Below are positions 19,261 to 52,381 of a stretch of DNA of 64,000 nucleotides, piece after piece. Location of the stretch: contig QCXZ01000001.1 in the NCBI GenBank assembly GCA_025024175.1, forward strand, positions 19,468,001 to 19,532,000. Reading direction: 5' to 3'. Below the pieces are notes generated by a model. That model made no database searches. It saw nothing but the letters and a program-made list of their open reading frames with translations, and was not told the DNA's origin. Numbering within the stretch: position 1 is the stretch's first letter; every line of letters begins with the position of its first letter. This DNA is from Rhyzopertha dominica (Eukaryota > Arthropoda > Insecta > Coleoptera > Bostrichidae). A program made the position numbers and the translations under genes.

Positions 19261-19401
19261 TATACTTCGCCTCGCCCTCAAGATCACTAAAACCGTAGTA
19301 CCCTCTCTAGGGTTGTAGGTGTCACACTAATTTAAAGACAGAAACAAAATCTGTCGGTAAGGTAGGTATCTACTCCAAGCCCCTTCCCCAAACCTTCATT
19401 C
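19261..19401 (+). repeat. DIRS left inverted terminal repeat
   Basis: This matches the reverse complement of 24060-24201 almost perfectly over about 115 bp, up to AACCTTCATTC. The outermost 25 bp differ between ends (ACTTCGCCTCGCCCTCAAG on the left, versus a complement of the right end reading ACGAAGCCTCGCCTGAAAAG). Each variant is separately copied in the internal complementary region. Confidence 0.92.
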
Positions 19402-19479
19402 TTCGCTAGTGTGTGTAAGGTGTGTACACGTTTAGTTCATCATCGCGTTTATTTTACGGTTTATCGATATATTTGCAAG

Positions 19480-22811: not shown

Positions 22812-23728
22812 GTATTTTACTAGCCTCGATAACAGATTCTACATGGCGTCAGTATGAAAGTCCTCTAAGAAAATGGTGGGAATTTTGCAAGAATGAAAAT
22901 CGTAGTCCAAGCACTGTCTCAATCCCTTCAGTTTTACACTTTCTTACATCATGGTTTGAAAAAGGAGCTCTTTATGGTACACTCAACAGTGCCAGATCTG
23001 CCATTGCTTTGTTAGCACCAGCTGGGTTTGCTGATGATCTTAGGATGCGAAGATTCTTTAAAGGAATTTTTAAACTTAGGCCTGTTACACCAAAATATGA
23101 CTATATGTGGGACCCTAAAATTGTTTTGGATCATATGCATTCCCTGGGGGATAATGACACTCTCACACTAGGACAACTGGCTTCAAAATTAGCCACACTT
23201 TTGATTTTAACAACAACACAACGTATACAGACTTTATCCTTAATTCAAATTCAAAACATTGAAGAAGAAAAAGAGGGATTAATTATTAAGATTCCACTGC
23301 CTACTAAAACTTCCAGAAAAGGGGCAACCCAACCATCCATGTTCTTGCCTTATTTTACTGAAGATGTACATATTTGTGTGGCCTCGACATTGAAACACTA
23401 TTTAGCGAAAACAGAAAACTTGAGACCGTCATCAACAGACAGACTTTTCATATGCAATAGGCAACCTTATCACCAAGTCACTACACAGACTTTAAGTCGT
23501 TGGATTCAAATGCTTCTTAGGGATAGTGGTTTGGACACTTCCAAATTCTCTGCATACAGTACACGTCATGCTGCGGTGTCTAAAGCTTACAAAAGGGGTG
23601 TGTCTATAGATGTGATACGAAAAGCTGCAGGTTGGTCTAATACTTCACAAACATTTGCTCGTTTCTATAATCGACCTTGTGTAACTGTTAATCGAGACCA
23701 TTTGGCTCGCACTATTGTAAGTCAGTGA
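22718..23728 (+). CDS. DIRS tyrosine recombinase
   Basis: The frame opens after a TAA at 22715-22717 and overlaps pol in the -1 frame. No ATG precedes the N-terminal core-binding domain (STWRQYESPLRKWWEFC), so it is probably also expressed by frameshifting. The catalytic part shows the first Arg in TTTQRIQTL, a Lys-containing beta-hairpin region, the HxxR box as YSTRHA, the AAGWSN box, and the nucleophilic Tyr in FARFYNR. The enzyme inserts the circular DNA intermediate without target duplication. The first residue of the HxxR box is Tyr instead of the usual His. This may be a lineage feature or a weakening change. The length is normal for the family. Confidence 0.92.
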   Translation, partial: QVTSFVADSFPGGRALVREAFEAKGIPSNSIGILLASITDSTWRQYESPLRKWWEFCKNENRSPSTVSIPSVLHFLTSWFEKGALYGTLNSARSAIALLAPAGFADDLRMRRFFKGIFKLRPVTPKYDYMWDPKIVLDHMHSLGDNDTLTLGQLASKLATLLILTTTQRIQTLSLIQIQNIEEEKEGLIIKIPLPTKTSRKGATQPSMFLPYFTEDVHICVASTLKHYLAKTENLRPSSTDRLFICNRQPYHQVTTQTLSRWIQMLLRDSGLDTSKFSAYSTRHAAVSKAYKRGVSIDVIRKAAGWSNTSQTFARFYNRPCVTVNRDHLARTIVSQ

Positions 23729-23883
23729 TTAACAATTATTTTAATTGTGATACATTATTTTCTGTTTGGTTTTCGTAAGGATATATTCGAGATTTTATTT
23801 GTTAATGCATTAATCTTTGGTGTGTTATCCTGTATTTACCCTGAATAAAGTGTTCTCCTAATGTCGCAACTTGCTTTAAACAT

Positions 23884-23996
23884 CTACGGTTTTAGTGATC
23901 TTGAGGGCGAGGCGAAGTATAATTAATAGATCAAACGAACTTACCTGAAGTGAAGTTCGATCTTAATTATACGAAGCCTCGCCTGAAAAGATCACT
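23884..23996 (+). repeat. DIRS internal complementary region
   Basis: The first part (about 23884-23922) is the reverse complement of the left end (19261-19299). The remainder (about 23922-23996) is the reverse complement of the right end (24176-24241), including the right-end extension that the left end lacks. This junction-like arrangement of both termini is the template used to circularise DIRS cDNA. Confidence 0.92.
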
Positions 23997-24059
23997 CCCA
24001 CCCTTTCCCATGAGCTTTCAGCTTGCTCCCAATTAAGTTGCGACATATTTTCTTTAAAC

Positions 24060-24241
24060 GAATGAAGGTTTGGGGAAGGGGCTTGGAGTAGATACCTACC
24101 TTACCGACAGATTTTGTTTCTGTCTTTAAATTAGTGTGACACCTACAACCCTAGAGAGGGTACTACGGTTTTAGTGATCTTTTCAGGCGAGGCTTCGTAT
24201 AATTAAGATCGAACTTCACTTCAGGTAAGTTCGTTTGATCT
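24060..24241 (-). repeat. DIRS right inverted terminal repeat with extension
   Basis: Positions 24060-24201 are inverted relative to the left terminal repeat. Positions 24202-24241 (AAGATCGAACTTCACTTCAG and onward) form a right-only extension that is matched in the internal complementary region. Confidence 0.9.
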
Positions 24242-27200
24242 ATTAATTATTATTATTATCATTATTATTATAATAACCGATTTGTAATTTGTTTATAGGT
24301 ATGTATATTGTTCTATCTTGTCTTGTTATTGAACTGAAGCTTAAATATTTTGCAACCATTTCTTCAGTTTCAGTGCCTCCTAGAGTCATAGTTTTACGGA
24401 ATTTTCTTATAGAAAAATTATGTGACAATGGTACTTGGATTCGCAGGAGCGAACACTATACAAAATTAAACAACTTTGAGGAAACGATATAGCCATCGAA
24501 ACACGAAAGCTCCTGAATATACCGTGTGGTAACTGAGTGAACCAGGCCAGGTATAAGAAAGAATGGCGAGAAAATTTACACTACAGTGTGGGTATATGAC
24601 GACGAAGTCTTTTCATAACGCATCTTGGTGTAATAACGTACCTCCCCAAAATCCAACAAATGCAGATTTATTCTCTTCCAGTCCTTTATTTATTGTAATT
24701 TTTTCAGTTACAATACAATACAAACATAGTTTCTGGGTATACAGGGTCCACCTCCTAAAACTCTGCAGGGTCGCATTTTCTCTAATTCTTTAGGTGCAGC
24801 CTTAACTGATATGTCAAAAAATAGGGAATATACAAGCCTGGGGAGTTTTTAGTGGCAGACCCTGTATACACAGTGCTTCATGGAATTATTAGTGTCTAAC
24901 AAGTTTTTAGCAGGAAGTAGATGATTGATTCAGTAAATACATATGGTAAAGAATTGATAGTAAGATGTTTTTAGCTTACGATAGAGAAGAACCACATATT
25001 TACGAATCTATGCGTTACTGAGAATATGAGTAACATAAGCTAGCGTATGTTTTCCTTTTTTTTTTGAAGATTGCAGTCAACTTGCAAACTTTTAATAACC
25101 AAAATGCTTTAATATTTCTAGTGGCTTTTTGCGTTCGGAATTTTATCAGTTTTAACAGTAAAGTTATTAATTCAGTTCTGAAAATACCCTCAAGTGTTCA
25201 TGACACTGCAATATCTGGCTATTTATGCTGATTACTCGATGGCTATCTGAACCCCCGGCGGCCACAAAAAGGCGGAAGTCATAAAGCAAGTCATTATTAT
25301 TTTTCCAAGTTCCACTGCGGAGTGCGACGGCTTGATAAATGATATATATGCTAATGATATTCGTATAATTAACAAAACTCGACGTCGCCGATTCAGAATA
25401 GATCGATCGCACTTCTTCGTCTGGCAGATCTCGATTCATAGCTGGCAGTGTCTGGAGACGGACCCCTGGCAGCTTGAAAGCAACATAATGGACTCATTGT
25501 GACCCGACAGGTTTTGGGTTCTTAATCGATAAAAGGTCCAAAGCTTAGCATTTAAAGCATTACTCACGGTGTGTTGCATTAAGTAGCATTTATTTTGCTA
25601 AAACCTTAATTGGATTAGGCGTACTAATTCGATAATTCTGATTAATACCAGTGGAAGTGCTTCGTACGATATTATTGCGGCATTTCAGAATAATACAAAG
25701 TTACTGAAAAAGCTTGTATGCAGAGAATGGCTGCCCAATCATTGTTTTCATCATAATGAAAGTGTAACATTTGAACTTGGTTTACCTCTAGTTTGAAGTA
25801 TATTCCTAGGTTGGAAATAAATAAATTCCCACTACAAGCACAATGTAAACAACTTGTATGATTTGAATTACAATAAAATTATCAGTTTTCAACTATGTTG
25901 AATGGGACTGTATATACATTCATTTTCTCAAAATGTGATCAGTGAACCCGCTTGCAGGTTTTTTTGCCGTGGGCACGTCTCGTCCATTGTTTTGGGATAC
26001 TTTTCGTGCATTCATCTCTACAGGTATAGAAGTATAGAAGTTTTAATAGGGCGAGACCATTTAGCGATAGAAACAAAACTCTGCGCAGGCAGAGGCTTAG
26101 TAGAAGTGTTATCTGAATGTTACAAGAAAGTCCCCGTGCAGAGCTGGCTGGTGTGTTTTAAATGTCAAATTGTCAAAGAGTAATTTATCTGTTATAAGCA
26201 TATATTTACAGCTTCCTGTAATTTGCCAACATTGCAGCTGAATTGTGTGCGAGTCTGGCCCGATGCTTTTGCTCACAAGGTCACATCTCACATAAATTAT
26301 ATCACGCAAGCACCGGCTTTTAATTCATAAGATTCGAATTGTTAGCGAGACCAAAGATATCGAAACAGAAACAGGCATGACGTAAAAGCAAGTGCTTAAA
26401 CAAACCTTCGACATGCAAATAAGCATTTGATATTTGCAATGATGGTTCAAAGAACTATAATCTACGGAAATTAGAATCGAATGGTTTACATTAATTAACT
26501 GAACTATTACCAAGTAGCGTTATTTGGTCCATATTCCTTACGCAAAATGGGTAGTTTTAACAATGCTTGATTGAAATATTCAGACAACGCTGGACAACAG
26601 TAGAGCATACCTATAGATGTAGGTACTTCTGCAAGGGAGAATGCACGGAATGTATGTAAGTCATTATATTTTGACATTAAATTAATAGTAATCCAATAAA
26701 AGTGCGAAATGGGAGGTTGTATTAAGGAAACAGTTTACACTGCTTTTCAAGTGCTAAAAGATTAAAAAAACTCGTGAATATCGGATATAAAGCAATTTCT
26801 CATGCATATCCTAACCTCGTAATGTAAGAAACATAAAGAAAGAACAGATGTAATTGCGTTTCATGATATAAAGGACTGAACTGGTAAAATTATTCAAAGA
26901 TTGAATGTAGTGCGATTTTATAATTAAAAAACCATTTTTCTACAGGGCATCAGACCTGCCCACATTAAAATTTGGGTAGATCTAAGACACGGGCCACCCA
27001 TAATTTTTTAACCAAATCATTGGATGTATTCTTAAAAATCTTACGTGCGCACGAAACAAAAAGATCCAATTTACGCTAGAGAAAGAAATAGGTGGATTTC
27101 GTAATTGGACATATCTATTTCAGTAAAGGACAAATAAGATTGACTATGAAATTTATAGAAAACCTATTGTTTGGATATTTCTTTATTGCCTGTCAAACTT

Positions 27201-28963: not shown

Positions 28964-28969
28964 GCGATT
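28964..28969. repeat. Polinton target-site duplication, left
   Basis: GCGATT directly precedes the left terminus and is repeated exactly at 52376-52381. Six base pairs is the characteristic Polinton target-site duplication length. Confidence 0.95.
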
Positions 28970-29295
28970 AGTAGACCTCTGATGGGGGATCTGTATCAAT
29001 CATTTGCATATTAGCCTGTGTGAGCATGTGTAATTCGCTATCGCGATCAAAATTTTTTAATTTTTCGATTTTTTTATGTGACGTGATGAGAAATATGATT
29101 TGAATTTGCATGTTGATAAATAGTAACTTATTGTTTAAAAAATGATTTGAATTTGCATGTTGATAAAGTATCTTATTAGATGCATTCATTTTCCCCGGAT
29201 TTTTATTACTAATATTAGAATAAAATAACGCCATTATTCTTATAATTTTCTTTATTGATTTCTTCTTCTACAATATGTAACGTAAATTATAGCAT
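28970..29295 (+). repeat. Polinton left terminal inverted repeat
   Basis: This pairs with 52050-52375 at equal length, with only one obvious difference (ATCAATC here, ATCACTC in the complement of the right end). It contains two 26-bp direct copies of ATGATTTGAATTTGCATG.. at 29095-29120 and 29142-29167. An 88-codon frame reading outward from the AT-rich inner part is present in both TIRs. With no domain and a repeat-derived sequence, it is not called as a gene. Confidence 0.97.
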
Positions 29296-29473
29296 TATGA
29301 TCGATCAGTGGCATATACACACTTGAAAACAAAAAAACTCACTTTACACATCACTTTTTTCGATCTGGAATGGTAGGACAACAGCGAAAGACATACATGT
29401 AGACTAGGAATATTTTTTTTATTTTACTTACTATTACAAAACAATTATATATATATATATACATATTTAAATA

Positions 29474-31710
29474 CTAAAAGAAAGGATATGGAGGATAAGG
29501 AGGAGGAGGAGGAGGAGGAGAAATCCTGGCATAGGGATGCGGATGATAGCACTCAGGTTCTGCAACAAAAAGGAAAAAAAACATGGTATAAGTATTAACA
29601 AAAATTAAATAGAAGAAAAACTTTCACCTCTATGGCAATGCTGTCTCCCTAGCCGCATTGGCCCTACATGCGGCAGTTGCTGATACTCCTGCTGAGACGC
29701 CAAATGTTGTATCGCCATGTTGTAAAAGCTATCTAATGAGAAAAAAGCATGGGATTAGGTTTTTTCTCTAAATTAAGAAAGACTGATTTACCTCTAAAAG
29801 GATAGCTCCCTACCATGGGCTGCCACCGATGCTCATGTATCTGATGTGGAATGGTTGCATCTAATGAGAGAAAAAAATGGAATTATATATGTCTAATAAT
29901 TCTCTAACGACTTACGGTGGAGCAGCCCAACATTTGGCGAGGGCTGGTGATATCCAGCGGGCGTCTCGTAAAAACCATCTAATGAGAAAAAAGTATGAGA
30001 CTAGGGTTTTTTCCAAATTAAGAAAATTCTGACTTACCGTTAGCAGGAGGGTTCCCTGCTATTGGCGATGATAGCGGTGACAGCACATGCCGCATTGGAA
30101 TACTCGCATCTAATGAGAGGGGAAAAAACATGAAATTATGTTTTCTCTAATAATTCTCTAACGACTTACTGTGCATATCCCAGTGTTCATGTATTGGAGA
30201 CGGTCGATATAACACAGGCTCCAGCGGGTTTCTATAACCCTCATCTGCATCTATTGATCAAAAAAGAAACAAAATTAAGTTACTAAAATTAAAAGGAAAA
30301 AACTGTAAATTTAATAACTTACTGAAAAATGGCAGCGGCTGTAGCATTTGCCTGTGGTTAGCAAGAACGATCGCCTCCACATCAGGGTGTTCTGCAATTG
30401 TAAAGAATGGAAATTGTAAAAATAAAACGATCCTTTAAGAATAATAAAAAAACAGGCAGTATTAATTAATTATATTTCTATGTAAAAAAGATTACCTACC
30501 ATTGCGGTTATCCCATTCCCTCAGCGGATGCGCATCATCTGATACCTCGGAGGTGGGCATATCGTCTATAGCTATACATATTGGAAAAAAATTTTTCTTA
30601 AGAAATTGAACACTTAAAAATCAATTTAAATAATATTACCCATTTGAGGATGCTGGCTATTGACCCACTCTCGGACACGAAGTTCCCTGGCGGCCGCAAA
30701 TTCAGCATAATCTGTGAAAACCATAACAATTCTTTAAGGATAAAGAAAAAACTAAAACTGCTTATAGCTACTATCAAATTGTACAAGTTACCAACCGTTA
30801 TAGAGCTCTTGCGATGCTTGCTGCTGCGGCTCGCCAACTTCGAATGACTCTGTTTCATCTTCATCACTGGAACCATATACGGCTAACGAAAAAGAAATAA
30901 ATTAATAAAAATAAATAATAAACATTGGATAACTCACTGTACACCCGTGGATCAATATTTAAATCCAGTGTTTCAGAATCGAAAACAGAATCGTGGTCAT
31001 CGTCACCAGCATCTGTAAAACATGAAAAGAATATAAAAATTGTATTTCTTTCAAATGAGAAACAAACAGAATGCACTCACCCATTTCCCGAGGTAGATGC
31101 ATTGGGAGGTCCATGTTGTTGACACCAGAGATGCCAGCCAGCTGATCTAAAAAAAATTGACGATAAAAACAATGTAAACTAGAAAACAGTTGTAAATAGC
31201 TCATACCCGAAGTTGCCGTGTTGTCATCCGGCAAGCTGAAAATATATGACCGACTTGATGACGATCCTGATGCCATGAATTCGTTCAGCGGTCTTATTTC
31301 CATTTTGTTAGGGTCAGCGTTCAGTCCCGCTGGAAAGAAGACCTCACAAATGTTTTCAACGAAATTGTTGAAACGATCCAGCGGAACCCTTTCGACCCTA
31401 CAAGTCGGACAGCTAATCGTCGTCGAATTCGGTGGCTCTCTCAGAATTTTTTGCGAATACGCACACGTATTGCACACGTTGTGCGCTCTGGGGCAGTAGA
31501 ATATCCGCTTTGGCGGTGCAAATGGTTGGAAACACACCGGACATTTCAGCGACCTCCCAACGGCATGCACTAGCATTACATACCTTACAATTCTGCAAAT
31601 TAAAAATAATTATAATAATAAAAATATTATCGACTTTTTAAATATATGTGTACTTACATGTCGTAAGCGGTGAGAGCATAGCTCCTCAGTCTTCTATTAG
31701 CGTGCTCCAT
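29474..31710 (-). CDS. RING-finger micro-exon gene in the Polinton (14 exons)
   Basis: Read on the minus strand, ATG at 31708-31710 starts exon 1 (31658-31710). It is followed by exons at 31207-31592, 31081-31146, 30938-31012, 30796-30882, 30640-30711, 30500-30571, 30323-30391, 30170-30250, 30038-30109, 29916-29978, 29792-29860, 29628-29732 and 29474-29559, ending in TAG. Nearly all junctions have GT..AG with good donors (GTAAGT, GTGAGT). The summed length is 1,356 nt, an exact multiple of three (451 aa). Exon 2 encodes a C3HC4 RING with Cys35/38, Cys51, His55, Cys58/61 and Cys79/82, suggesting E3 ubiquitin ligase activity. The remaining 12 exons are short; introns 2 to 13 are phase 1 and exons 3 to 13 are multiples of three. 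They encode an acidic, then Pro/His/Gln-rich, chain ending in a polyproline-tyrosine tail. The family is not recognised. The donor of exon 5 (GTTGGT) is weak, and exon 7 has two possible acceptors 6 nt apart. Confidence 0.85.
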
Positions 31711-31739: not shown

Positions 31740-33180
31740 GGAAACGAACGATATATTCTAAGTTTCATTTTTTGGTTAAATTTATAACATCGCACACCCC
31801 CTCTAGACAAAAAACATCTTCTAAAGAGGGGCGTCAACGAAAAATTTGATAGGCTGTCTACATTTGAGAGGGTGTATTCAGATAAGCGAAAAGTTGCCTT
31901 AAATAAGAAACACCTGCACTTTCAATAATTCAAAAGAAAATTATAAAAAAGCCAGATGACTATCTCACACGTCGAAAAAAGATAATATCACTCTGATTTA
32001 ACAAGACCACCCCATTGCTAAAAAAAACTCCTGTGTCACATAATTCCGAGGGTGAGTCGTAAAAAAAAGTATCATCTCGAGCATTGGAATTTTATCTATT
32101 GTCAAGCCCCCCGCTATTCATATATCTAATTCCAAGCCGTCGCGTCTATGCGATATCTCAAAGGTAGGTCGTTTGTTATTTTTATACCTGGCTGCGGACA
32201 GCGGTCACCCCCATAAACCGACTGATTAAATGCTGACCATAGAAAATCAGACGAATATTCAAGCATGTATAACAAAAGAGATCAAAATCTTTTCTGAATA
32301 ATGAAACTGCTCATCATTAAATCGTATCCCGTCTAAAACGCGATTAGAGAGAATTATACTTAACATTTGCAGAGCGGGGGGTCAGTTCTATAATCATACA
32401 TGTTTGAATTCTAACATTAATGAGATGCCCTTTGTATTGTTAAAAATATATATACCCTGACATCTCATAACTTTAAAATTCCAGTGGAAAGATACAATCT
32501 TTTCACCTCTAAATACTTTATTCATTGTGACGCAGATAAAATTTACATTAGGCAATATCAACAATGAAATCAGGATACATTTCGGAGAAAACACCTGCGT
32601 TTTCAATGGTTAATTTTCAAATAAGGTAATACCATACGTCAAAAAAAGATAATGGAATGAGTTTCTCCTAATGTACAGCTTTGAATTCCGGCAAAAAGAT
32701 ACGATCTACATTTTTTACCCTATAAAACACCACCCATTGCAAAGCAACTAAAATTCATATTGGATGGTATCAATATGGCAATCAGGGTGAATCGGTATGT
32801 TAAGACATGTTTGAAGCTCCTTTTATTATTTAATGAATGCCCTTCGAAGAAACGTGTAACATTTTAGAAAATGCAATCTAATACGTCAGAAAGATAATGG
32901 AACTAGTTAAGCTGATAGTATCACATCGTGAAAAAAATATAAAAAATACTGTAGGTAATAAATTCCAATTGTCAGACTTTTTTTATCAGAATATACTTAC
33001 ATGTCATATATATCTGTCAGGTATCACCTGCTCTTAGACAAGTTCTAACAAGTTAGAAGTTTTTTTCTTCTCATGAATGCTTCCCAGCAAAGCAGCTGGT
33101 TTTTATCGCCATAATACCTGTCATGTATGATATAACATGAATCCCACATTAAGATCTTTATCGAATTAATTTAAAAGCAG
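31740..33180. repeat. Non-coding Polinton segment with degenerate tandem repeats
   Basis: No gene is seen between the RING gene and the promoter at 33190. Several diverged repeat copies are visible. ACGTC followed by an A-rich run and AGATAAT recurs at about 31969, 32637 and 32882. ACACCTGC(A/G) followed by TTTTCAAT-type text recurs at about 31911 and 32591. AAAGATAC(A/G)ATCT recurs near 32487 and 32695. The repeats are too decayed to define a unit length confidently. Confidence 0.5.
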
Positions 33181-33232: not shown

Positions 33233-33494
33233 TTTAGTGCGTGTATGTATGTGTTAGTGGCCAACATACGAGCGTAGTCTATGAAAGTGCTTCGCGTTTT
33301 TTCTTTCCATAATTTCAATCTTAATACTGCTAATTTAAAAGTATTATTATTTAGTATAAATTCGGTATAGTTTGATATCTTTTTTTAGAATATTACTTAT
33401 AGTGTTTAATAAGTGAGTTCAATCGGGTTTCTACAGAACGCAGTTTGTGCTTCATACATTTTATTTTACGGGCAAAGGTAAATTTAAATCAATA

Positions 33495-33836
33495 ATGGAT
33501 TCTTTAAATCAAATATCTTCAGCAATGCCGCAGTTTGAGAATGAACGGATTAGAGCTGAAGAATTGGAAATTGGAAGAGCTTATAATGTAATGAAAATTA
33601 AGCAGACACAGACGAGATTCGGTAAATGTACTTACGCGATTATTAGAGTTGCCGATACCGAGGGAACCGTTAATCGCGTTATTTTTTTACCGAACCGTCT
33701 TAATCAGGCGTTTACAGATTCAGTCTTGGAAACATTTAACGCTGTTCCTGATGCCAAATATCTTAAATATCTTGGCTCTAAAAAAATGTATGAAGGTGCT
33801 CGGCCTACCCACCTTTTCGAATTTGGAGACTTATAA
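33495..33836 (+). CDS. Uncharacterised small Polinton protein, possible OB-fold-like
   Basis: ATG at 33495 is preferred over the upstream frame start at 33447 because it opens a coherent protein of 113 aa (MDSLNQISSAMPQFE). It contains KIKQTQTRFGKCTYAIIRV, then VIFLPNRLNQAF, YLKYLGSKKMYEG and a terminal FEFGDL. Small proteins of this pattern, a TRFG.C beta segment followed by a FLP(N/R)R motif, are common in arthropod mobile elements and DNA viruses. Their role is not established to my knowledge. The beta-rich pattern would fit a single-stranded-DNA-binding fold, which is inference only. A TATA/Inr promoter lies about 270 bp upstream. Two decayed partial copies follow at 34335 and 34462. Confidence 0.75.
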   Translation: MDSLNQISSAMPQFENERIRAEELEIGRAYNVMKIKQTQTRFGKCTYAIIRVADTEGTVNRVIFLPNRLNQAFTDSVLETFNAVPDAKYLKYLGSKKMYEGARPTHLFEFGDL

Positions 33837-34334
33837 TTAATTAGATAATTATGAGTCTCACAAATATTATAGGTATAAGGCTTATTATTCTAAATATTTG
33901 TTTAGTTTTAACTATAATTCTACAGCATAGTTTGACATCTATAAGAATAAGGATTATTTTTAAAAATATATTTTTAGTTTAATTATAATTTACTATATGC
34001 GCACTTCCCAAGCACGCTCGTATGACTTAGGCAACTTTTTTATTAACATACACGCATAAAGTTTCAACTAGACCATCAATTCCATTAAGGTAAGCGCTTT
34101 TTTTTATAAGCCAGCATAATTTTCCAATATATACACATATAATATTTACTAGTGGGTATAGGGAGCATTACTTATTCAAAAAAAAAGGAAAAAACCGCAT
34201 ATCCACAAATTTCTAAGCTATAATAATATCTAATAATAATATTACAGTAACTGAGCAAGTCTTAGTTAAAATTCCACATGAAGAAATGTATTTAATGTAG
34301 AAATAACAGCATCGCATCGCCTCGCCATTTTTTC

Positions 34335-34403
34335 GATTTAGGTTCTAAAAAAATGTATGACAATGCCAAACCGACGCAGTTGTTCCAATTTGGAGATTTA
34401 TAA
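34335..34403 (+). pseudogene. 3' fragment of a paralogue of the 33495 gene
   Basis: This short fragment encodes LGSKKMYDNAKPT followed by QLFQFGDL and TAA, closely matching the C-terminus of the 33495 protein. The following 60 bp of 3' UTR-like sequence is repeated after the second fragment, so the two fragments arose by local duplication. Confidence 0.75.
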
Positions 34404-34461
34404 ATATGTCTTTAGTATATGTACTGTTTTTGTCAATATTAGATATACCTATATGTCGTAG

Positions 34462-34611
34462 CTCCCGGTCAGGCTAAATAAAGGGTTCTCTGAGGATATA
34501 ATTAAACTTTTTAATGCCAAGCCCGAATCGAAATTTCTAAAATATTTAGGTTCTAAAAAAATGTATGACAATGCCAAACCGACTTAATTGTTCCAATTTG
34601 GAAATTTATAA
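34462..34611 (+). pseudogene. Second paralogue fragment with premature stop
   Basis: The frame reads RLNKGFSEDIIKLFNAKPES, then the LGSKKMYDNAKPT block, and is interrupted by TAA at 34585-34587 where the sister fragment has a Gln codon. It covers about the last 45 residues of the 33495-type protein. Its amino-acid divergence from that protein is much larger than the divergence between the two fragments. Confidence 0.75.
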
Positions 34612-34619
34612 ATATGTCT

Positions 34620-35890
34620 TTAGTATATGTACCGTTTTTGTCAATATTAGATATACCTATATGTCGTAGTAATATTAATTAGTAGTACTTTTTATATATT
34701 TTTTTCATTTATAGCCTTATAACCGCTCCTACCCACAAATAAATTCTAGACGAAAAGACTGAACTAAAGGAATACTTATAAAAACGCACACAAGTGAAAA
34801 TCATAAAAAGGGACCCAATTAAAGAAATAGTTCTGTTTTAATGGTAAGTACAGCTTGCATATTATTATATCTTTATAAAAAGCGTAGAATACTAACATGA
34901 TAATCGCTATTTTTACTATCATGCGCTAATACCGTCAATCAGTCAGAAAATAGTCTTTGATTTCTGGAAAGGGTCATTGACAACGGTCGGTCATAAGCCA
35001 GTAAAAACGACTATCCGCCATCGGAGGTGGGTCCGTGGTATCCAATTGAAAGAAAGCAATGTCAGGTAACTTGACGTCCATTATGGGGTGGGCCTGTTAA
35101 ACCAGCGCTTAACGCTCGACCAGTGATAGCCGCCGTTCATTATGCATGGTGTGGATCCGATTACAGCGGATTTCGCTCAACGCTGCCAAGCATCTCATAT
35201 TTGTCCGGCAAAAAGGAATTTTTTCAAAGTCGTCGGCAATGTAAAGTACCACATAGCTGTTTGCGTTGTTTGACCTCTAGCATGATTTCTTTCATAATAT
35301 TCAGCTGTTTTTATGACTTATTACTTAGATAAGGGACGCTTACATGAATACATAGTTAAAGCAATGACAAGATTTTGCGATAAATGCCTTTCCACAGGCT
35401 ACGGATGGCTTCTTTTTAGGAAGTGATACGCATTGTGGCAGCTAGGTGGCTTTGTCATTATGCCAGACAGATGGCATTGCCATCTAAATTATACCGTGCT
35501 GTCTGCACTAGACCTAATGTTGGTTGCATTTTAAACATAGTTGTCTTCGACATTTTCAGCTGTTTTGATGACTTATCACTTAAATAAGGAATGCCTACAC
35601 GATTTTGCGATAAAATACCTTTCCACAGAACTCATTATTTTAAACATAGTTATCTTCGAGATTTAGCCCCATCCTTATGTTGCCAAGCGTATTCATGTCT
35701 TCCCGACAATTTTCAAAGAAATATTAAATTATACCGTGCTGTCTGCCATATCAATCAACCTGATGTTTATTAAGACGTCTCCCCCCCCCCCTCCCTTTTC
35801 TCTAAATTAAGTTGAAAAATATATATGAAGAAAAAATAAAACAACTTGCTATTTGTACAAGTATTTATTAAAGGTATAAAATATTTTTCG
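34620..35890. repeat. Non-coding Polinton segment with local duplications
   Basis: Direct repeats are visible. The block 35302-35342 (TTCAGCTGTTTTTATGACTT) recurs at 35557-35599. TTTTGCGATAAA..CCTTTCCACAG recurs at about 35373 and 35608. AAATTATACCGTGCTGTCTG recurs at 35482-35501 and 35726-35745. A copy of the genome-dispersed repeat sits in the middle (35419-35466). Open frames at 35123 and 35591 have no recognisable domain. Confidence 0.55.
35419..35466. repeat. Dispersed repeat, copy 3 of 3 (inside Polinton)
   Basis: AGGAAGTGATACGCATTG, then GGCAGCTAGGTGGCTTTGTC, matches the copies at 7179 and 15604 outside the element. This suggests that a smaller transposon or its remnant lies inside the Polinton. 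Confidence 0.6.
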
Positions 35891-36443: not shown

Positions 36444-39400
36444 ATGGCAAGCTCTAGTACTAAGCAAATGGAACAAGATCTTCCACCATCCAACAATGTC
36501 AAATTTTGTGCAAGTTGCAACCTGCATATCGAGCGTCGTAAATTTCCAGCACATACTAGAACAAACCAACACAAGAACAACAGCGCTCGAGAGATTTCCG
36601 ATGGCGTTCAAATAATAGATAGCGCTTTCAATAGCAGTTTATGTATCTATAGAATACTAAAGCCGGCTCAATTTGGAAATGAGAATTGCATCGACTATCA
36701 AGAATTCTTTCTTCATCTTAAGGACAAAACATTATCCATCATAACAGAAAAATTGAAAGATGATCCATCACTGAAAATTAATTTTGAACTATTCTGCCTG
36801 TTTGAGCTGAAGAAAGGCTATCAGGCAGACATAGAGAATCCCCAAATTAACAATGAAGACGTAACTTTTGATATCAAAAGTTTTAAAAGTGGACCGTATA
36901 CTCTGGTGACAACCACAACTGACTTGCAGCAACTATACCAAGGATCAGCAGAGAGAATTACTACAAGAGCTCTTGAATTCCAGGTATGTATATGCGATAC
37001 TCTAATACAAAATATCTTCAAGAGAATTTTTTTAATTAAAAAATTTTTTTTTTATTTTTTTTCAATTACTTCTCTTTTTTGCAGGAATTACAGAGCGGCT
37101 GGAGCTTAACGGACATCTTGTTTTTGGAAATGTCTACTGCACTGCACACACCATTGGCTGGATCTTCATATATACCCTTGCCTAAATGCGTCCAAGCCAC
37201 TAAATCTATAATTAATGTTCAAAATACCGATCATTATTGCTTTGTTTGGGCAATATTGAGCGCTCTTTATCCGCAGAAAACCAATGCTAATCGTGCTTCA
37301 AGGTATTTTCAATATTTTAACACCCTTGACTGCAGCGGTATGACATTTCCAATGCAGATAAGAGATATCCCGAAATTTGAAAAAAGGAACAACCTATCTA
37401 TCAATGTGTTTGGCTTAAGCTGTCGGGAAGATGCGAAAAAACAGGACATTGCTGAGGCCGAGACTGATGTGACTTCCACCGCAGATAACGTTTCACGCAA
37501 GAAGGAACGAAGAGACTTTCGAATAACTGGCCCGTTGCATCACTGCGTTACACGTAAGAGTAAACACGTTAATTTACTGTATATAGAAGATGGTTCTAAA
37601 GGTCATTACTGTTACATTAGAGATCTAGCGAAGTTGTTAGTCGGACAGCTAACCAGCCATCGTTGTAAGCTTTATATATGTGATGGATGTTTATGTAGAT
37701 TTCAATCCTCCGAAAAACTCAAAGAGCATTTAGACTTGCAAGATTGCTCCAAATATGTTACCTTATTGCCCGAACCTGGTAAAAATGATGTAATTCAATT
37801 TTCCAATACTCATAAGTCCGTTAAGTTGGAGTTTGCAATATACGCGGATTTCGAAACCATTTTAACCCCTTTTGATACGGTGCAGTGCAATGCTGAAAGT
37901 AAATTCGTAATGAATACAGCAGTCCATTTTGCCCACAGTTTTGCATATCAAATAAAATGCAGCTACGACGAGTCGCTTTCAACTCTTAGAATATATCGCG
38001 GTGAAAACTGTGCTCTAACGTTTATAAAAATGCTAATCGATGACGTGAGAGGTATCTTCACAAAACATCTCTTTAAGAATGAGCCAATGACACCGCTTAC
38101 ACAGGAAGAGATTTCGAAGATTAGGGATACCACTCGATGTTACATGTGTAATGGTGATTTTCCATCAGATAATGGAGATATATCTCTAAGGCCCGTGAAG
38201 GATCACAGCCATGCAAGCTCTTTATTCAGAGGTGTCGCTCATTCAAAATGTAATTTAGCTAGCAGGACGCCAAAAATGATACCGGTTATAATACACAATC
38301 TATCCGCATATGACTGTCATCTGTTTGTAAAGGAATTAGCTCTTTCGCCCCTAATCGAAAAAATCAAAGTTATAGGGCTAACGAAGGAAAAATATATAGC
38401 TGTGGATGTAAAAATAGCGGTAATGGGAAATAAGACGGATGCGAAAGAAAACAAAAAGTACAGCCCACATGTAAGTTATGTAACAATACGCTTCTTGGAC
38501 AGCTATAGATTTATGGCGAGCAGTTTGGCTGAGTTGGTTAGCTATTTGGATGATGATCAGTTCACAGAGACACGTAGATACTTCGATTCGGAGGACAAGT
38601 TTCAGCTCATGAAGCGAAAAGGTATTTTTTGTTACGAATATGTTGACTCGCTTGAGAAATTGAGTACAACCAAAAGTCTGCCACCACGAGAGAAGTTCTA
38701 CAGTAGCCTAACGCAAGAAACCGTATCAGAGGAGGATTATTTACACGCGCAAAAGGTTTGGAAGGCATTTGATTGCCGAGATTTGGGGGGCTACTCCGAT
38801 CTGTATCTAAAATCCGATGTTCTGTTGCTGACTGATGTATTTGAGGCTTTCAGAACGAAATGTCTCGACGAATTTGGTCTCGATCCTGCCATGTACCTCA
38901 CATCTCCAGCTCTCAGCTGGGATGCAATGCTCAAATTTACGAAAATTAAACTACAACTTTTAACGGAAGTCGATATGCTCCATTTTATAAGAAAATCCAT
39001 AAGAGGTGGTATCTCAATGGTTTCGCATAGACACGCTGTGGCCAACAATAAATATACAGTAAGCGAGGAAAAAGAAAGAAAACCTTCTAACATGATGACT
39101 GATGATGACATCAATTTTACGACTGAATCGAATTCTTGTACAGAATCAAACTATCTAATGTACTGGGATGCAAACAATCTATACGGACTTGCCTTAAGCA
39201 ATCCATTACCACATGGAGACTTTAGATGGCTTGACAGTGCCGAAATTAAAAATTTTGATGTTATGAGTATTTGCGGGACAGATGGAGATACAGGATTCAT
39301 TATAGAATGTGATTTGGCCTATCCCAGCCATCTGCACGATAAACACAACGATTTGCCAATGTGTGTGGAAAATATTACTTCGCCTACGGGCAATATAAAA

Positions 39401-40429: not shown

Positions 40430-40540
40430 GAAAGAAAAAAGTGTGTAGCCTGTTTAGATAAGTTTATTTGTTAAGTCATACATTTGTAATAACATTACAT
40501 TATGTGTAGTATATAAAATTAATAAATGTCTAAAATTTTC

Positions 40541-41479
40541 TTAAACTATATCGTTTTCATGTATCCAAGAGTTGTGCCCATCATCAAAACCCAACCATTT
40601 CACATAGACTTTATTATCCTTGGTCCTTCTTCGCAGCACCTTTTCCACTAGGTACACATTTGGATGAACCGTCTTCTGCAGCTCTTGCTCATAGAAGCAG
40701 CCCTTAATCGGAGTTCCATTCATGTCTTGCAGTAAGTATGTAGGAGGATCGGTTTTTTGTCGTCTGTAAACTTTAAAGTGCTCTGTCGACCAATTTGCAG
40801 TGTAAGATTTATCAAACGCCTGCTTGTGACGGCTAATACGTACAATATCATCCACATTAAATTTAAAAGATACTCTTTTCTTTGCAGGCTTTACCGTTGA
40901 AAGCGGCGTAATGAATTTAAGCTTAGTCGAATGCGTAACTTGATTGGGTTTCATTTTTATCGTACTATGCCAAGTGTCATTGTATTTATCGGTTATCTCT
41001 TGAAGAATCTGTTGCCATCGGTAGCTACCCTGGAGTGAGAATTGCTTATACAATTTACTTTTCAACGTTCTTATAACACGTTCTACTATGGCCGCCTTCT
41101 TTGAACTGTATGTGGAATAATGTAAAATATTAAGCCTTTCCAACAGTGCAGATACGCGCTGATTGTAGAATTCCCGTCCTTGATCAGTTTGTAGTAAACG
41201 AGGTGTATATCCGGCTCTTTTAAATATCCTCTCCAAGGCTTTGACTATACACTCGGCCGTCTTACTTTTAACGCCTTCCGTCCAAAGGAATTTGCTGTAG
41301 CAGTCTATTACGACTAATATGTATCGATATCCTTGGTTTTGCTTTGCATATGCTTGCATATCAGCTAGATCGGCTTGAAACAAATCTGCGAATCCTTTAA
41401 TGATTGTTCGTCGTCGCGGGAAATTCCTTCGTGCCGGCTTGTGCAACTCATCAACTAACTGCTTTTTTATTTCGCTCAT
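40541..41479 (-). CDS. INT: Polinton integrase with chromodomain
   Basis: The 312-aa protein has a retroviral-type DDE core: Asp37 in FQADLADM, Asp99 in LLQTDQGREF and Glu133 in AAIVERVIR. The last two are separated by 33 residues. A beta-rich segment follows (VSFKFNVDDIVRISRHK). The C-terminus from about residue 274 is a chromodomain (YLVEKVLRRR, then VYVKWLGFDD and SWIHENDIV), which could direct insertion to modified chromatin. There is no N-terminal HHCC finger, which is common in Polinton integrases starting with this NFPRRR region. It inserts the linear copy and creates the 6-bp target duplication. This copy is intact; the copy on the far side of the gap is frameshifted. Confidence 0.95.
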   Translation of the reverse strand: MSEIKKQLVDELHKPARRNFPRRRTIIKGFADLFQADLADMQAYAKQNQGYRYILVVIDCYSKFLWTEGVKSKTAECIVKALERIFKRAGYTPRLLQTDQGREFYNQRVSALLERLNILHYSTYSSKKAAIVERVIRTLKSKLYKQFSLQGSYRWQQILQEITDKYNDTWHSTIKMKPNQVTHSTKLKFITPLSTVKPAKKRVSFKFNVDDIVRISRHKQAFDKSYTANWSTEHFKVYRRQKTDPPTYLLQDMNGTPIKGCFYEQELQKTVHPNVYLVEKVLRRRTKDNKVYVKWLGFDDGHNSWIHENDIV

Positions 41480-41581
41480 CGCAAATTATCAGTCTCGCTG
41501 TTGTATAGATATGTTTTTGCCCTCATCCGTCAAAAAATACTATTTCACAACTGTTTATGAATGTCCTTATATATCTCAATA

Positions 41582-46377: not shown

Positions 46378-47078
46378 TTAAGGATATATAAACTTATCGA
46401 ATCCCTTTCTATATCTACCATTATCTATCGGGCTATCCTTACATATCACCAAAAACCCATGATCATCCTTCCAACATTCAGCACACATTTTCTGAAACTG
46501 TTCATACGTTACATCTGGTGAGACATGATCGTTAAAAATGTGACGCAAATTTAAGGAATCCACCCTAAAGCAAATCAAAGTGTTTAAATTATCCCTAATT
46601 AATTGTTTCGGAACTTTGAATATGTTTGGCATAAATAAAAACAGTCGATACGCTTATGCCGACCATAACTGAAGTATGACTGGATTATAGACTGCTTTTC
46701 ACACATAATGTCGTCGAATATGAACACAGAGTCCGGTTCGGCGTTTGACGGTTCCACAATATCTTCGGCATTGCTGAACGTATACACCCCTAAGCCTTCG
46801 ATAGGTTCTAAAATTTTTTGCAGGTATTGATATTTGGGCTGGTATAATGACTTTGAATAAATATAGACGTTGGAAAAGTACAAACCCTGAGGGTCTAAAA
46901 TTAAACTAATAACCACATTCGTCTTTCCGGCATTCGATGGGGCAACAATAATGGCACGAATCGTAGAAGGTAGCAGCGGTCCATGACGTTGCGCCTGCTC
47001 TTGACACGTATTCACCACATTTACCTTATTATCCAGGTTTTCGACCTGTAGTCGATGATTCTGCTGTTCGATGCGCAT
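46378..47078 (-). CDS. ATPase: Genome-packaging ATPase (FtsK/HerA type), one frameshift
   Basis: The protein starts MRIEQQNHRLQVENLDNKVN at 47078. Walker A is APSNAGKT (residues 46-53) and Walker B is SVFIFDDIM (FDD at 121-123), followed by a sensor-like FYLCQTYSK segment and the C-terminal half. This size and layout match the A32-like packaging ATPases of Polintons, which drive genome DNA into the capsid. The frame breaks at a T run near 46614-46616, where copy A carries one more T and reads through, so the gene is probably intact in the organism. The start lies only 55 bp from the divergent plus-strand gene at 47134. Confidence 0.9.
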
Positions 47079-47133
47079 CTCACCACGGTCTGAATATATA
47101 TAAATAGATAGCTAAGAGACGAATGTTATTTAA
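47079..47133. promoter_or_regulatory. Divergent promoter between ATPase and PLA2-domain genes
   Basis: The 55-bp spacer separates the two start codons and contains TATATATAAATAG at about 47095-47107, a TATA-like element. It is the switch point between the minus-strand packaging genes and the plus-strand virion genes. Confidence 0.5.
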
Positions 47134-48141
47134 ATGCTAACCTTCGGCCGAGAAGAACGGTCAGGTGGTAAACTGATCAATTCGCTAATAGATAATTTAC
47201 CAGTGGAACTTCACCTTCCTGGAGGATACCAGTGGTGTGGCCCGGGTACCCGGATAGATAAACGCTTATCCAGAGGAGATCCTGGTATCAACCAGCTTGA
47301 TAAAGCTTGTAAAGAGCACGATATTGCGTACAGGGATAACAGCGGTTTATCGAANCGTNACGAGGCCGATCGTATTCTCGAACACAGGGCTTGGGAAAGA
47401 GTTGTTTCCAAGGACGCTGGATTTAAGGAAAAAGCCGCATCTTATTTAGTTACAAACGTAATGAAGTTGAAGCGGCGTTTAGGTTTGGGTTGTAGAAGCA
47501 ATGTTGTTGCTGTTAACAACAGCTCTCAACCTGCAAGAAAAAAAACAAGGAAAACGCGGGCGAAGAAAAGGAACCGTACAGGTCTGGGATGTGCACAATA
47601 TCCGAAAAAAAACAAGAGAGGAAATGTTCGAAGGAAGAAGAAAACTAAACTGAGCAGAAAGACTGGCGGTAAATTATCTTTCCAGTCTAGTTTTATACAA
47701 AAGATACGTAATGCCTTGAGGAAGGGAATCCGCTCAAAATCTAACATCAGCGGTGGTGGGGGTGATGCACAACAGGCGGTAAAAATTGCTCTGCGGGCAG
47801 CACGTCGAGCGCTAAAGGCTATGGGTGGGAGGCAGCGCGTTCAAATTCCACGAGTGATACCTGTCCCAAAAACCGGCGGTGTTTTGCCTCTAATACCGAT
47901 ATTTGCCGGACTCTCAGCGCTAGGATCTCTGGCCGGATCGGTTTCTGGTATAGCTAAAGCCGTACATGATGCTAGAATAGCACGATCGCAGTTGGAGGAA
48001 GCGAAACGTCATAATGCAGCTATGGAAAGTAATTCTGCTGCGGTATCTGTCCCTGTTAGTGGTAATGGATTGCACTTGAAACCATATCGAAAAGGCTTTG
48101 GTTTATATCTGACCAACTATAAGAACTTGTCAAAAAACTAA
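47134..48141 (+). CDS. Virion protein with phospholipase A2 domain
   Basis: The 335-aa protein opens with a PLA2-like domain: the calcium-loop pattern GGYQWCGPGT (residues 30-39) and the catalytic helix LDKACKEHDIAY with the His62-Asp63 pair. This is the arrangement of parvovirus-type VP1 phospholipases used to breach endosomal membranes. A strongly basic middle (KKTRKTRAKKRNR, KKNKRGNVRRKKK) looks DNA-binding, like an adenovirus core protein. A C-terminal hydrophobic stretch (VLPLIPIFAGLSALGSLAGS) is followed by a helix and the GLYL-type tail (KPYRKGFGLYL). Related proteins occur in Polintons and adintoviruses. Two Ns at 47355 and 47359 leave two residues unknown. Confidence 0.88.
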   Translation: MLTFGREERSGGKLINSLIDNLPVELHLPGGYQWCGPGTRIDKRLSRGDPGINQLDKACKEHDIAYRDNSGLSXRXEADRILEHRAWERVVSKDAGFKEKAASYLVTNVMKLKRRLGLGCRSNVVAVNNSSQPARKKTRKTRAKKRNRTGLGCAQYPKKNKRGNVRRKKKTKLSRKTGGKLSFQSSFIQKIRNALRKGIRSKSNISGGGGDAQQAVKIALRAARRALKAMGGRQRVQIPRVIPVPKTGGVLPLIPIFAGLSALGSLAGSVSGIAKAVHDARIARSQLEEAKRHNAAMESNSAAVSVPVSGNGLHLKPYRKGFGLYLTNYKNLSKN

Positions 48142-49811: not shown

Positions 49812-50090
49812 ATGGGTTTCGTTTATAAAAAAAATAATGTTTCAATGGTTATAAGCCGAAGGGGAGATGACAGTGGTAAATCTAAAAAAAAATCAAACAA
49901 TAAAAGGAGGCGATCTATGATCCATGCGCCCAGTATTGTACTGAACGCACAGCAGTTACAACGAGCGCAGCAGCCACAGAACAACGACAGCAGCAGCAGC
50001 AGCAGTTTCGATCTAGAGCTGCCGTATAAAATTTCAAAGCGAGATATTGAATTTCTAAAATCCATAGGATTGCGACCTCGACAACCATGA
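49812..50090 (+). CDS. Small basic protein between the two capsid genes
   Basis: This 92-aa protein begins 2 bp after the penton stop and ends in an ATGA overlap with the major capsid start at 50087, so it is tightly packed between the two capsid genes. It has a Lys/Arg-rich stretch (SKKKSNNKRRRS), a Gln/Ser-rich linker and the C-terminus LPYKISKRDIEFLKSIGLRP. Position and overlap support a real gene, possibly a capsid-associated or cement-type peptide. That role is inference. Confidence 0.65.
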   Translation: MGFVYKKNNVSMVISRRGDDSGKSKKKSNNKRRRSMIHAPSIVLNAQQLQRAQQPQNNDSSSSSSFDLELPYKISKRDIEFLKSIGLRPRQP

Positions 50091-51328
50091 CATTCAACAG
50101 CAATTTCACCAATAGCGAGAAACTTGAAGTATTCGAAGAGCCAGTCTTTGATGATTCACTCGTTAGCCTGCATGAACATACATACAAGCCTTATGGATCG
50201 CCGCAATTCAACAATTCCGATGAGGTGCGAATCGCCGTCAACTTTCAAGATCTGATACTTGACATTTCCAACAGCTATCTGTACATTGAGGGTACGTTTA
50301 CACCCAGTGAAGCCAACAGAATTTGCTACCTTGCAAATAACACCTTTGCGTTTCTATTCGATGAGATTCGCTATGAGCTAGGCGGTGAACAGGTTGCTCT
50401 AGTACGAAAACCGGGTATTACGACGGCACTAAAAACAATGGTGTCATTTGACAAATCATATGCTCAAGCTCTTATTACAAGCGGTTGGGGTTTGAAGGTG
50501 GACAACCAATGTCTGCTGGATGAGACCAGTCATACGTTCAGCGGTAAATTACCCCTGAGCTACTTGATGGGTTTTGCTGAGGACTACAACAAAGGCATCG
50601 TAAACGTCAAACACGAGCTCATCCTCATCATTGCACGCAGTTTCAAAAATAGTTACTTTGGAGAAGTTGATGCTGAGGTTAAAATCAACAAGATTGAATG
50701 GAAGATTCGACATGTGATACCGGAGGATCGTTATAAGCTAAAACTTTTAACGCGTATGAAGAAAAATGCCATTGTAAAGGTGCCTTATCGCATGTGGGAT
50801 TTATATGAACTCCCTGCATTGCGTCAGACCTCCTCCGATGTGTGGTCCTTGAAAACGAGCACTAATCTTGAAAAACCCCGTTATGTAGTTATAGCATTCC
50901 AAAATGCTAACAATTATGACAATCGACAGGCAGATGCCACCAAGTTTCTACATGTCAATGTTAGCGATATTCGTCTCTTTCTAAATTCTAGCGTATATCC
51001 ATACGAGCGATGGAATTTAAATTTCAGCAAGAAACTCTATGCTCCAGCTTATTATGCATATGAGCAATTCCAAAGTAGCTATTACAACCGGTCAACATCT
51101 GATTCGCTCATGGATTATGGTGAATTTCTCTTAAATCCTGTATTTGTAATTGATTGCTCTCATCAAGCTGATGCTTTAAAATCGTCAACTGTTGATATCA
51201 AGATTGAATTTGAAACACGCGAGCAAGCCTTTCCAGCCAACACCAAGGTATATGCTATTGTTTTTCACGATGCCTTTCTAACATACAACTCTCTAGATGG
51301 CATTGTTAGCAGAATGACCTCACTGTAA
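50087..51328 (+). CDS. MCP: Major capsid protein (double jelly-roll)
   Basis: The 413-aa protein starts MTFNSNFTNSEKLEVFEEPV. Key Polinton capsid features are the N-terminal YKPYGSPQFNNSDEVRIAV, then SYLYIEGTFTP, FDEIRYELGG and the conserved DRYKLKLLTRMKK region. It is followed by the second beta-rich half with YPYERWNLNF and YAYEQFQSSYY, and a late segment (KIEFETREQAFPANTKVYAI). Such double jelly-roll proteins build the icosahedral shell of Polinton/adintovirus particles. It is intact, without ambiguous bases. Confidence 0.92.
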   Translation: MTFNSNFTNSEKLEVFEEPVFDDSLVSLHEHTYKPYGSPQFNNSDEVRIAVNFQDLILDISNSYLYIEGTFTPSEANRICYLANNTFAFLFDEIRYELGGEQVALVRKPGITTALKTMVSFDKSYAQALITSGWGLKVDNQCLLDETSHTFSGKLPLSYLMGFAEDYNKGIVNVKHELILIIARSFKNSYFGEVDAEVKINKIEWKIRHVIPEDRYKLKLLTRMKKNAIVKVPYRMWDLYELPALRQTSSDVWSLKTSTNLEKPRYVVIAFQNANNYDNRQADATKFLHVNVSDIRLFLNSSVYPYERWNLNFSKKLYAPAYYAYEQFQSSYYNRSTSDSLMDYGEFLLNPVFVIDCSHQADALKSSTVDIKIEFETREQAFPANTKVYAIVFHDAFLTYNSLDGIVSRMTSL

Positions 51329-51468: not shown

Positions 51469-52077
51469 ATGTATTCAGCACCGTCATATTTAGTAGTAGA
51501 TATTCAAGGATTTCAATATGGAAGAGGTGGTAACTTTATAGTCAAAGAACTTGCAGCTGTGTGTTTGCAGAGCAGAAGGTATATGCATGTTCTGTTTAAA
51601 CCACCCAAACCTTTTAAGAAGTTATCTAAGCGAGAGCAATCTCAATATCGTTGGTTAGAAGGGAACTATTTGGGCGGTATAAGATGGTCGGATGGATATG
51701 CTGATCTAAACATGCTACCATCTTTATTGCGTAAAATGCTTACATCATGCACCGCAAATAAGAAGAGGAAGAATTCAACAGATATGGACACGCAACCCAT
51801 CGACGATGTGTATATACTATGCAAGGGAAGTGAGAAGAAAACCATTCTACAATCCTATATCGATCATAACGATATGGGTATTGCTGCCTCAGTTGTTGAT
51901 TTGGATGATTATCGAGCGTACTTCCCCGATATTGGAAGTTTACATAGAGCACAATCATCGGACATACCAACATGTCTCTTCCACAACTGTCGAAAGGAAT
52001 GTACACATTGCGCATTAAAAAATGTATGGTACATATGTAATATTCTGTCATGCTATAATTTACGTTACATATTGTAG
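51469..52077 (+). CDS. Uncharacterised arthropod mobile-element protein, possible RNase H-fold/DEDD-like
   Basis: ATG at 51469 gives 202 aa. The protein shows the pattern VVDIQGFQYG..FIVKELA at the N-terminus, HVLFKPPKPFKKL, QYRWLEGNYLGGIRW, then DDVYILCKGSEKKTIL, VVDLDDYRAYFPDIG and a Cys/His end (CLFHNCRKECTHCALKNVWY). Proteins with this DxQGF / KG.EK / DLDD / CALKNV layout are abundant in arthropod genomes next to mobile DNA. The spaced acidic residues suggest a DEDD-type exonuclease-like fold, which is inference. The last nine codons and the stop lie inside the right terminal inverted repeat, so the TIR supplies the C-terminus and the 3' end. Confidence 0.75.
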   Translation: MYSAPSYLVVDIQGFQYGRGGNFIVKELAAVCLQSRRYMHVLFKPPKPFKKLSKREQSQYRWLEGNYLGGIRWSDGYADLNMLPSLLRKMLTSCTANKKRKNSTDMDTQPIDDVYILCKGSEKKTILQSYIDHNDMGIAASVVDLDDYRAYFPDIGSLHRAQSSDIPTCLFHNCRKECTHCALKNVWYICNILSCYNLRYIL

Positions 52078-52375
52078 AAGAAGAAATCAATAAAGAAAAT
52101 TATAAGAATAATGGCGTTATTTTATTCTAATATTAGTAATAAAAATCCGGGGAAAATGAATGCATCTAATAAGATACTTTATCAACATGCAAATTCAAAT
52201 CATTTTTTAAACAATAAGTTACTATTTATCAACATGCAAATTCAAATCATATTTCTCATCACGTCACATAAAAAAATCGAAAAATTAAAAAATTTTGATC
52301 GCGATAGCGAATTACACATGCTCACACAGGCTAATATGCAAATGAGTGATACAGATCCCCCATCAGAGGTCTACT
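52050..52375 (-). repeat. Polinton right terminal inverted repeat
   Basis: This is the reverse complement of 28970-29295 over its full 326 bp, with one clear difference. AATAAAG near 52090 may serve as the polyadenylation signal of the plus-strand gene that enters the TIR. Confidence 0.97.
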
Positions 52376-52381
52376 GCGATT
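52376..52381. repeat. Polinton target-site duplication, right
   Basis: GCGATT is identical to 28964-28969. Confidence 0.95.

Follow-up and report, generated by a model that had tools for sequence, protein, structure and literature searches.

Among viral RING proteins, herpesvirus ICP0 and baculovirus IE2 and PE38 carry the RING near the N-terminus followed by a long tail, and the ICP0 gene is spliced, its second exon encoding the RING. RING domains also occur in retroelements, namely in Isis-like Gag (PMC3630058) and in Burro1, a giant planarian Gypsy-like retroelement which carries RING, BIR and TRAF-C motifs (PMC6431247). The genes of intact vertebrate Mavericks are described as intron-free, and accessory regions with diverse open reading frames flank the core modules in most of these elements (PMC8097293). 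Genes composed of many small exons were described in other systems. Bicycle genes of aphids have many small exons, nearly all of which start at codon position 2 (PMC9168663); grape phylloxera has RING effectors (SPRINGs), which by definition possess a signal peptide (PMC6892190), as well as clades of effectors in which genes have at least 10 exons and exons were duplicated (PMC6892190, PMC7376646). Schistosome micro-exon genes contain exons of 3–81 nt among long introns (PMC10526429), and the usual limit for a microexon is 30–51 nt.

In the literature search no Polinton gene with the layout reported below was found, which is not a proof of its absence from print. None appears in the available portions of PMC3630058, PMC6431247, PMC2646287, PMC8097293, PMC12567637 and PMC11071308, and neither a RING gene nor splicing in an adintovirus was seen in those of PMC11071296.

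The window, i.e. the whole stretch of 64,000 nucleotides that was analysed, contains a Polinton (28970–52375), a virus-like, self-synthesising transposon, which is complete at both termini. Its inverted repeats of 326 nt differ by a single mismatch (at 28999), and the 6-bp target site duplication GCGATT flanks the element on both sides. Its termini and genes, except the gene under study, are as follows.

28964..28969, no strand: left 6-bp target site duplication GCGATT
28970..29295, plus strand: left terminal inverted repeat (TIR), 326 nt, starting AGTAGACC, one mismatch at 28999
36984..37084, plus strand: phase-0 GT-AG intron of 101 nt which separates the two frames of the PolB-like gene
40541..41485, minus strand: integrase with rve domain and chromodomain (Pfam)
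46599..47111, minus strand: packaging ATPase, Pox_A32-like, 21.8 bits against a Pfam cut-off of 22.8
47134..48141, plus strand: phospholipase A2-domain protein (Pfam)
50051..51328, plus strand: major capsid protein of the double jelly-roll type, E 2e-83
52050..52375, minus strand: right TIR
52376..52381, no strand: right 6-bp target site duplication GCGATT

The hallmarks of a Polinton, an rve integrase, a packaging ATPase (scoring just under its cut-off) and a double jelly-roll capsid protein, are thus present. A further long open reading frame, a candidate for the protein-primed PolB by motifs recognised by eye, had no match in NCBIfam or PDB, and in Pfam it matched only Endonuclease_7 (E 0.017, below cut-off). 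This PolB-like gene appears to be interrupted by the 101-nt intron, in contrast to the intron-free genes of vertebrate Mavericks; introns are therefore not foreign to this Polinton. The terminus begins with AGTAG, resembling the (AGT)2 ends of Mavericks (PMC8097293). The 6-bp target site duplication and an extra gene located outside the core beside the TIR likewise agree with what is described for vertebrate Mavericks and their accessory genes.

Two features concern the assembly and the small reading frames of the element. Around a gap of 100 N (43474–43573), about 3.4 kb reaching from the end of PolB to the ATPase is present on both sides with 97–100% identity (span 40174–46874); this duplication is probably an assembly artefact which inflates the length of the Polinton. 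Part of a small open reading frame (33417–33836) recurs twice downstream (33735–34669), with identities of 61% and 70% across 105 nt, and the two downstream copies are 96% alike over 126 nt.

The extra gene is the leftmost gene found in the Polinton, lying between the left TIR and the core genes and transcribed outward. The initial annotation had described it as a gene of 14 exons on the minus strand which encodes a RING protein of 451 amino acids and is carried by a Polinton, and all of this was confirmed: the gene has 13 GT-AG introns, its exons were recovered exactly de novo, and the TIRs together with the target site duplications enclose it.

29418..29423, minus strand: AATAAA polyadenylation-like signal, 51 nt beyond the stop codon and close to the TIR
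29474..31710, minus strand: RING gene, 14 exons, 451 codons
31658..31710, minus strand: exon 1, 53 nt, with ATG
31207..31592, minus strand: exon 2, 386 nt, RING-HC with the spacing Cx2Cx12Cx3Hx2Cx2Cx17Cx2C, followed by a weakly TRIM-like stretch
31081..31146, minus strand: exon 3, 66 nt
30938..31012, minus strand: exon 4, 75 nt, acidic
30796..30882, minus strand: exon 5, 87 nt, acidic
30640..30711, minus strand: exon 6, 72 nt
30500..30571, minus strand: exon 7, 72 nt
30323..30391, minus strand: exon 8, 69 nt
30170..30250, minus strand: exon 9, 81 nt
30038..30109, minus strand: exon 10, 72 nt, paralogue of exon 12
29916..29978, minus strand: exon 11, 63 nt, by position paralogous to exon 13
29792..29860, minus strand: exon 12, 69 nt
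29628..29732, minus strand: exon 13, 105 nt
29474..29559, minus strand: exon 14, 86 nt including the stop, proline-rich, one PPxY motif
31781..31786, minus strand: TATAAA, 76 nt 5' of the ATG

The exons, read from 31710 to 29474, add up to 1356 nt, i.e. 451 codons and a TAG stop, and the frame is open across all of them. Intron lengths of 55–108 nt agree with the range of mostly 55–110 bp given before. The symmetrical phase-1 exons claimed in the initial annotation were found for the tail exons 3–13, all eleven of which are divisible by three and have their first base at codon position 2; the description does not extend to the ends of the gene, as intron 1 is in phase 2 (the remaining 12 of 13 are in phase 1), exon 2 with its 386 nt is not symmetric, and exon 14 is terminal with 86 nt including the stop. 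The structure and the place of the gene are settled by the sequence, and its transcript is presumably spliced in the cell along these junctions. The gene sits leftmost in the Polinton, with the TATAAA in front of it and an AATAAA in the short space between its stop codon and the TIR; such a compact fit speaks for its being part of the element, although either signal may be due to chance in such A+T-rich DNA.

That Polinton genes usually have few or no introns, as had been stated before, agrees with the intron-free genes of intact vertebrate Mavericks in the available text (PMC8097293). A 14-exon RING gene is therefore unusual for such an element, and its 13 introns and modular exons set it apart from the Maverick genes described there. 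The introns by themselves do not demonstrate a function. A likeness to schistosome micro-exon genes, which the initial annotation had drawn, did not hold, because exons of 53–386 nt and introns of 55–108 nt stand here against exons of 3–81 nt among long introns; in addition, exons of 63–105 nt exceed the usual microexon limit of 30–51 nt.

The exon structure was recovered by an exon-chain search using dynamic programming with a generic splice model (approximate frequencies) and the codon usage of the other Polinton genes, with no homology input; five intron penalties were tried. At three of the five penalties (−3, −4 and −5) exactly the 14 exons were returned, with scores of 59.2, 46.2 and 33.2 as compared to maxima of 10.7, 5.6 and 5.3 among 100 dinucleotide shuffles at each of these penalties, and the chains in shuffled sequences had at most 3 exons. 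This exact recovery shows that the 14-exon structure exceeds chance. Stricter penalties led to shorter chains, namely 11 exons at −6, of which 10 coincide with those of the model, and 5 exons at −7, of which 4 do (score 14.1, shuffle maximum 5.0). As a control for other parts of the DNA, 50 strand segments of the same length over 1–62525 were used, of which 32 were usable as 9 of 25 segments with N were dropped; the longest chain elsewhere in these segments had 3 exons (36468–37109) and belongs to the PolB-like gene. The opposite strand of the RING gene yielded only a one-exon open reading frame of 111 nt, whose score of 13.0 was above that of every shuffle. This plus-strand frame (29488–29598) scores as coding-like and faces the proline run of exon 14, of which it is probably the mirror.

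Exon 2 encodes the eight metal ligands of a RING-HC (C3HC4) domain in canonical spacing, and the pattern occurs a single time in the six frames of the whole window. The RING seen in exon 2 by the initial annotation is hence borne out by its ligands; profile searches agreed in part, with matches to Sina_RING (E 2.3e-5; 24.9 bits, cut-off 29.3), zf-RING_5 (19.3 bits, cut-off 27.9) and zf-RING_2 (17.8 bits, cut-off 27.3), none of which scored above the curated Pfam cut-off. Comparison with PDB gave 21 weak matches at E up to 1, including 15 TRIM proteins (best E 0.0043), and the two best of these, both TRIM proteins, run on beyond the RING. A scan of exon 2 revealed no B-box and no SINA substrate domain at E 0.01, and the exon-2 query had no match in PHROGs or NCBIfam. 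Immediately after the last RING cysteine lies an arginine, in the place taken by the E2 linchpin of active RING ligases. A single-sequence structure prediction was poor (mean pLDDT 45.6), so that the RING fold is not confirmed by the model. Taken from its sequence features, the product of the gene is a probable RING-type ubiquitin ligase.

The gene thus resembles TRIM- and SINA-type RING ligases in its RING-HC spacing and its weak PDB and Pfam matches, but differs from them by its tail of small exons and by an exon 2 with neither of their companion domains at the threshold used. With ICP0, IE2 and PE38 it shares the RING near the N-terminus and the long tail, although the viral genes have far fewer exons and the likeness is one of arrangement rather than of demonstrated sequence kinship. 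Similar to Burro1, the Polinton is a large transposon with a domain of the ubiquitin or apoptosis type that has no evident role in transposition, but Burro1 is a retroelement and such an exon layout is unmentioned in the available text (PMC6431247).

The part of the protein encoded downstream of exon 2 comprises 293 residues, counting whole codons only, and is rich in proline (13.7%). It closes with a proline run that carries the PPxY motif of exon 14, and it is probably disordered. Within this tail we identified a tandem duplication of two exons with their preceding introns.

29916..30169, minus strand: block A, comprising intron 9, exon 10, intron 10 and exon 11
29628..29915, minus strand: block B, the duplicate of block A, comprising intron 11, exon 12, intron 12 and exon 13

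Global alignment of the two blocks revealed matches in 101 of 121 intron columns and in 92 of 184 exon columns, a contrast with a Fisher p value of 1.6e-9 if gaps are counted and of 1.3e-3 if only aligned columns are used. Under three further scoring schemes the p values ranged from 8e-10 to 9e-9 when gaps were counted and from 1.5e-4 to 1.8e-3 when they were not. Identity over aligned columns only discriminates poorly in this case, since free gapping brings other exon pairs to a mean of 0.78 as well. The block introns have 0.83 and 0.84 matches per column as compared to a maximum of 0.66 among 76 other intron pairs. Exons 10 and 12 with 0.61 matches per column lie slightly above other tail-exon pairs, and exons 11 and 13 with 0.43 do not stand out from 64 other such pairs, whose mean is 0.41 and whose maximum is 0.53. 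As neutral drift would treat exons and introns alike, the exons have probably diverged under selection for change. The stronger divergence of exons than of introns in this one block suggests diversifying selection; alternatively, splice constraint or gene conversion could have kept the introns alike, or exons could have been replaced. The duplicated two-exon block with its fast exon divergence is new in this analysis. It supports the interchangeable tail envisaged by the initial annotation; ligase activity, exon skipping and the targeting of the host keep the status of predictions.

With moderate confidence we propose that the gene is a Polinton accessory gene for an E3 ligase whose modular and fast-changing tail chooses targets among host defence proteins. 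The RING of exon 2 would dock a charged E2, and exons 3–14 would provide a proline-rich, probably disordered tail in which modules of about 20–35 residues pick the substrates for ubiquitination. Likely targets would be factors by which the host restricts or silences the Polinton. Since each inner tail exon is symmetric, a module could be added through tandem duplication, or left out by skipping, with the frame kept. After the duplication of the block its coding parts have outpaced the introns in divergence, which would fit a contest in which the targets keep changing. One can speculate further, and only tentatively, that the ligase is combinatorial, a fixed RING exon joined to eleven skippable, duplicating and fast-diverging tail exons giving rise to many target-binding isoforms which are renewed by exon duplication. 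An exon-level arms-race device of this kind was not found described for Polintons in the sources covered by the literature search. As the gene lies in an insect element with both termini complete, Polintons seem able to carry elaborate spliced genes. The gene is also a test case for the encounter of a virus-like transposon with host defence, and owing to the duplicated exon block, diversifying selection can be tested directly by comparison of copies.

Instead of serving the element, the gene could be a passenger, i.e. a beetle RING gene captured with its introns at the DNA level and carried without benefit to the Polinton, an explanation which we consider unlikely. Thirteen introns look cellular and are foreign to the intron-free genes of vertebrate Mavericks in the available description (PMC8097293), but the PolB-like gene of the same Polinton has an intron as well. 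A search for relatives of 220–700 amino acids found none at E 0.01 among 533 length-matched candidates from a database which holds proteins of several beetles; as this word-based search needs shared words, it may miss distant relatives. The frame open through 14 exons, the TATA-like signal and the poly(A)-like signal pressed close to the TIR also speak against a passenger. With exon 2 as query, one relative (P0002) was identified among 4 candidates. It is 94–95% identical, apparently read through introns, and could itself lie outside a Polinton. All its RING ligands are unchanged. At the protein level it differs in 7 of 146 exon columns and, with the introns translated in frame, in 5 of 40 intron codons (Fisher p 0.14), so this pair shows neither significant constraint nor significant acceleration of the coding part. 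Pattern matches for the RING protein in viral contigs (17) and in prokaryote genome contigs (25) yielded no confirmed relative.

The capsid protein of the same Polinton, in contrast, has 657 relatives at E 1e-5, and a RING gene with a single copy of 94–95% identity fits fast evolution or a recent origin. Among the best 120 of these 657 relatives, all those named to species are from beetles except one labelled as an archaeal MAG; those listed include Exocentrus, Phaedon, Leptinotarsa, Anoplophora and Sitophilus. A comparison with aphids therefore concerns another insect order. No capsid relative was confirmed in viral contigs, neither among 2 pattern matches with the single sequence nor among 37 with an alignment of 23 rows, and none was matched among phages. 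The 23-row alignment had 18 pattern matches in genome contigs, one of which (L001, 279–1505 of a 4.1-kb contig filed under a Balneolales MAG) is a distant Polinton capsid with 31% identity. Another capsid relative (P0071) is labelled Nitrosopumilaceae, and both are probably eukaryotic contamination.

A ligase that defends element and host together, attacking competing viruses or other Polintons (superinfection exclusion) by means of a tail that diversifies against viral proteins, seems quite unlikely to us. Many TRIM proteins are antiviral with fast-evolving target-binding parts, and the 15 TRIM proteins among the 21 PDB matches agree with such a role. Fast tail exons would fit any arms race, but nothing in the sequence favours viral over host targets, and the search of 533 candidates at E 0.01 found no host relative.

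PPxY is a known late-domain motif, and the protein could thus serve in structure or assembly, the RING acting as a scaffold or zinc-binding fold and the PPxY tail recruiting ligases of the NEDD4 type for particle assembly or release. The RING domains of Isis-like Gag (PMC3630058) and the one motif in exon 14 are consistent with this. However, a poly-proline run beside a tyrosine yields PPxY easily, capsid and ATPase genes are already present in the Polinton, and the exon modules are left unexplained, which makes this role very unlikely in our judgement.

The symmetric phase-1 exons recall bicycle genes (PMC9168663), and grape phylloxera has both RING effectors and the many-exon effector clades mentioned above (PMC6892190, PMC7376646), so a secreted insect effector of either type carried by the Polinton was also considered. 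For 11 of 12 inner exons the RING gene shows the bicycle trait of starting at codon position 2 (exons 3–13; exon 2 differs). Nevertheless, the published coefficients of the gene-structure classifier for bicycle genes (threshold 0.72) gave p = 1.5e-7, exons 2–14 lack a CYC motif and exon 1 lacks cysteine; the gene possesses a RING instead and appears to stem from a beetle rather than an aphid, so that the bicycle likeness drawn by the initial annotation does not extend to kinship. Kinship with the phylloxera effectors was rejected too, as those are secreted insect proteins, whereas no signal peptide was evident by eye at the N-terminus of the RING protein and the capsid relatives point to a beetle host; the available text of PMC7376646 does not mention a Polinton or Maverick. 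An effector origin appears remote.

An artefact of the gene model is barely credible, since the chain search drops exons at the penalties −6 and −7 but recovers them exactly at three others against shuffles, and the RING motif is single in the window.

Outside the Polinton, the window contains a DIRS-like retroelement (19259–24250) with reverse transcriptase, tyrosine recombinase and split inverted repeats, in which matches to RNase H and a Dam-type methyltransferase lay below cut-off. A reverse transcriptase fragment at 18119–19117 presumably derives from a non-LTR element.
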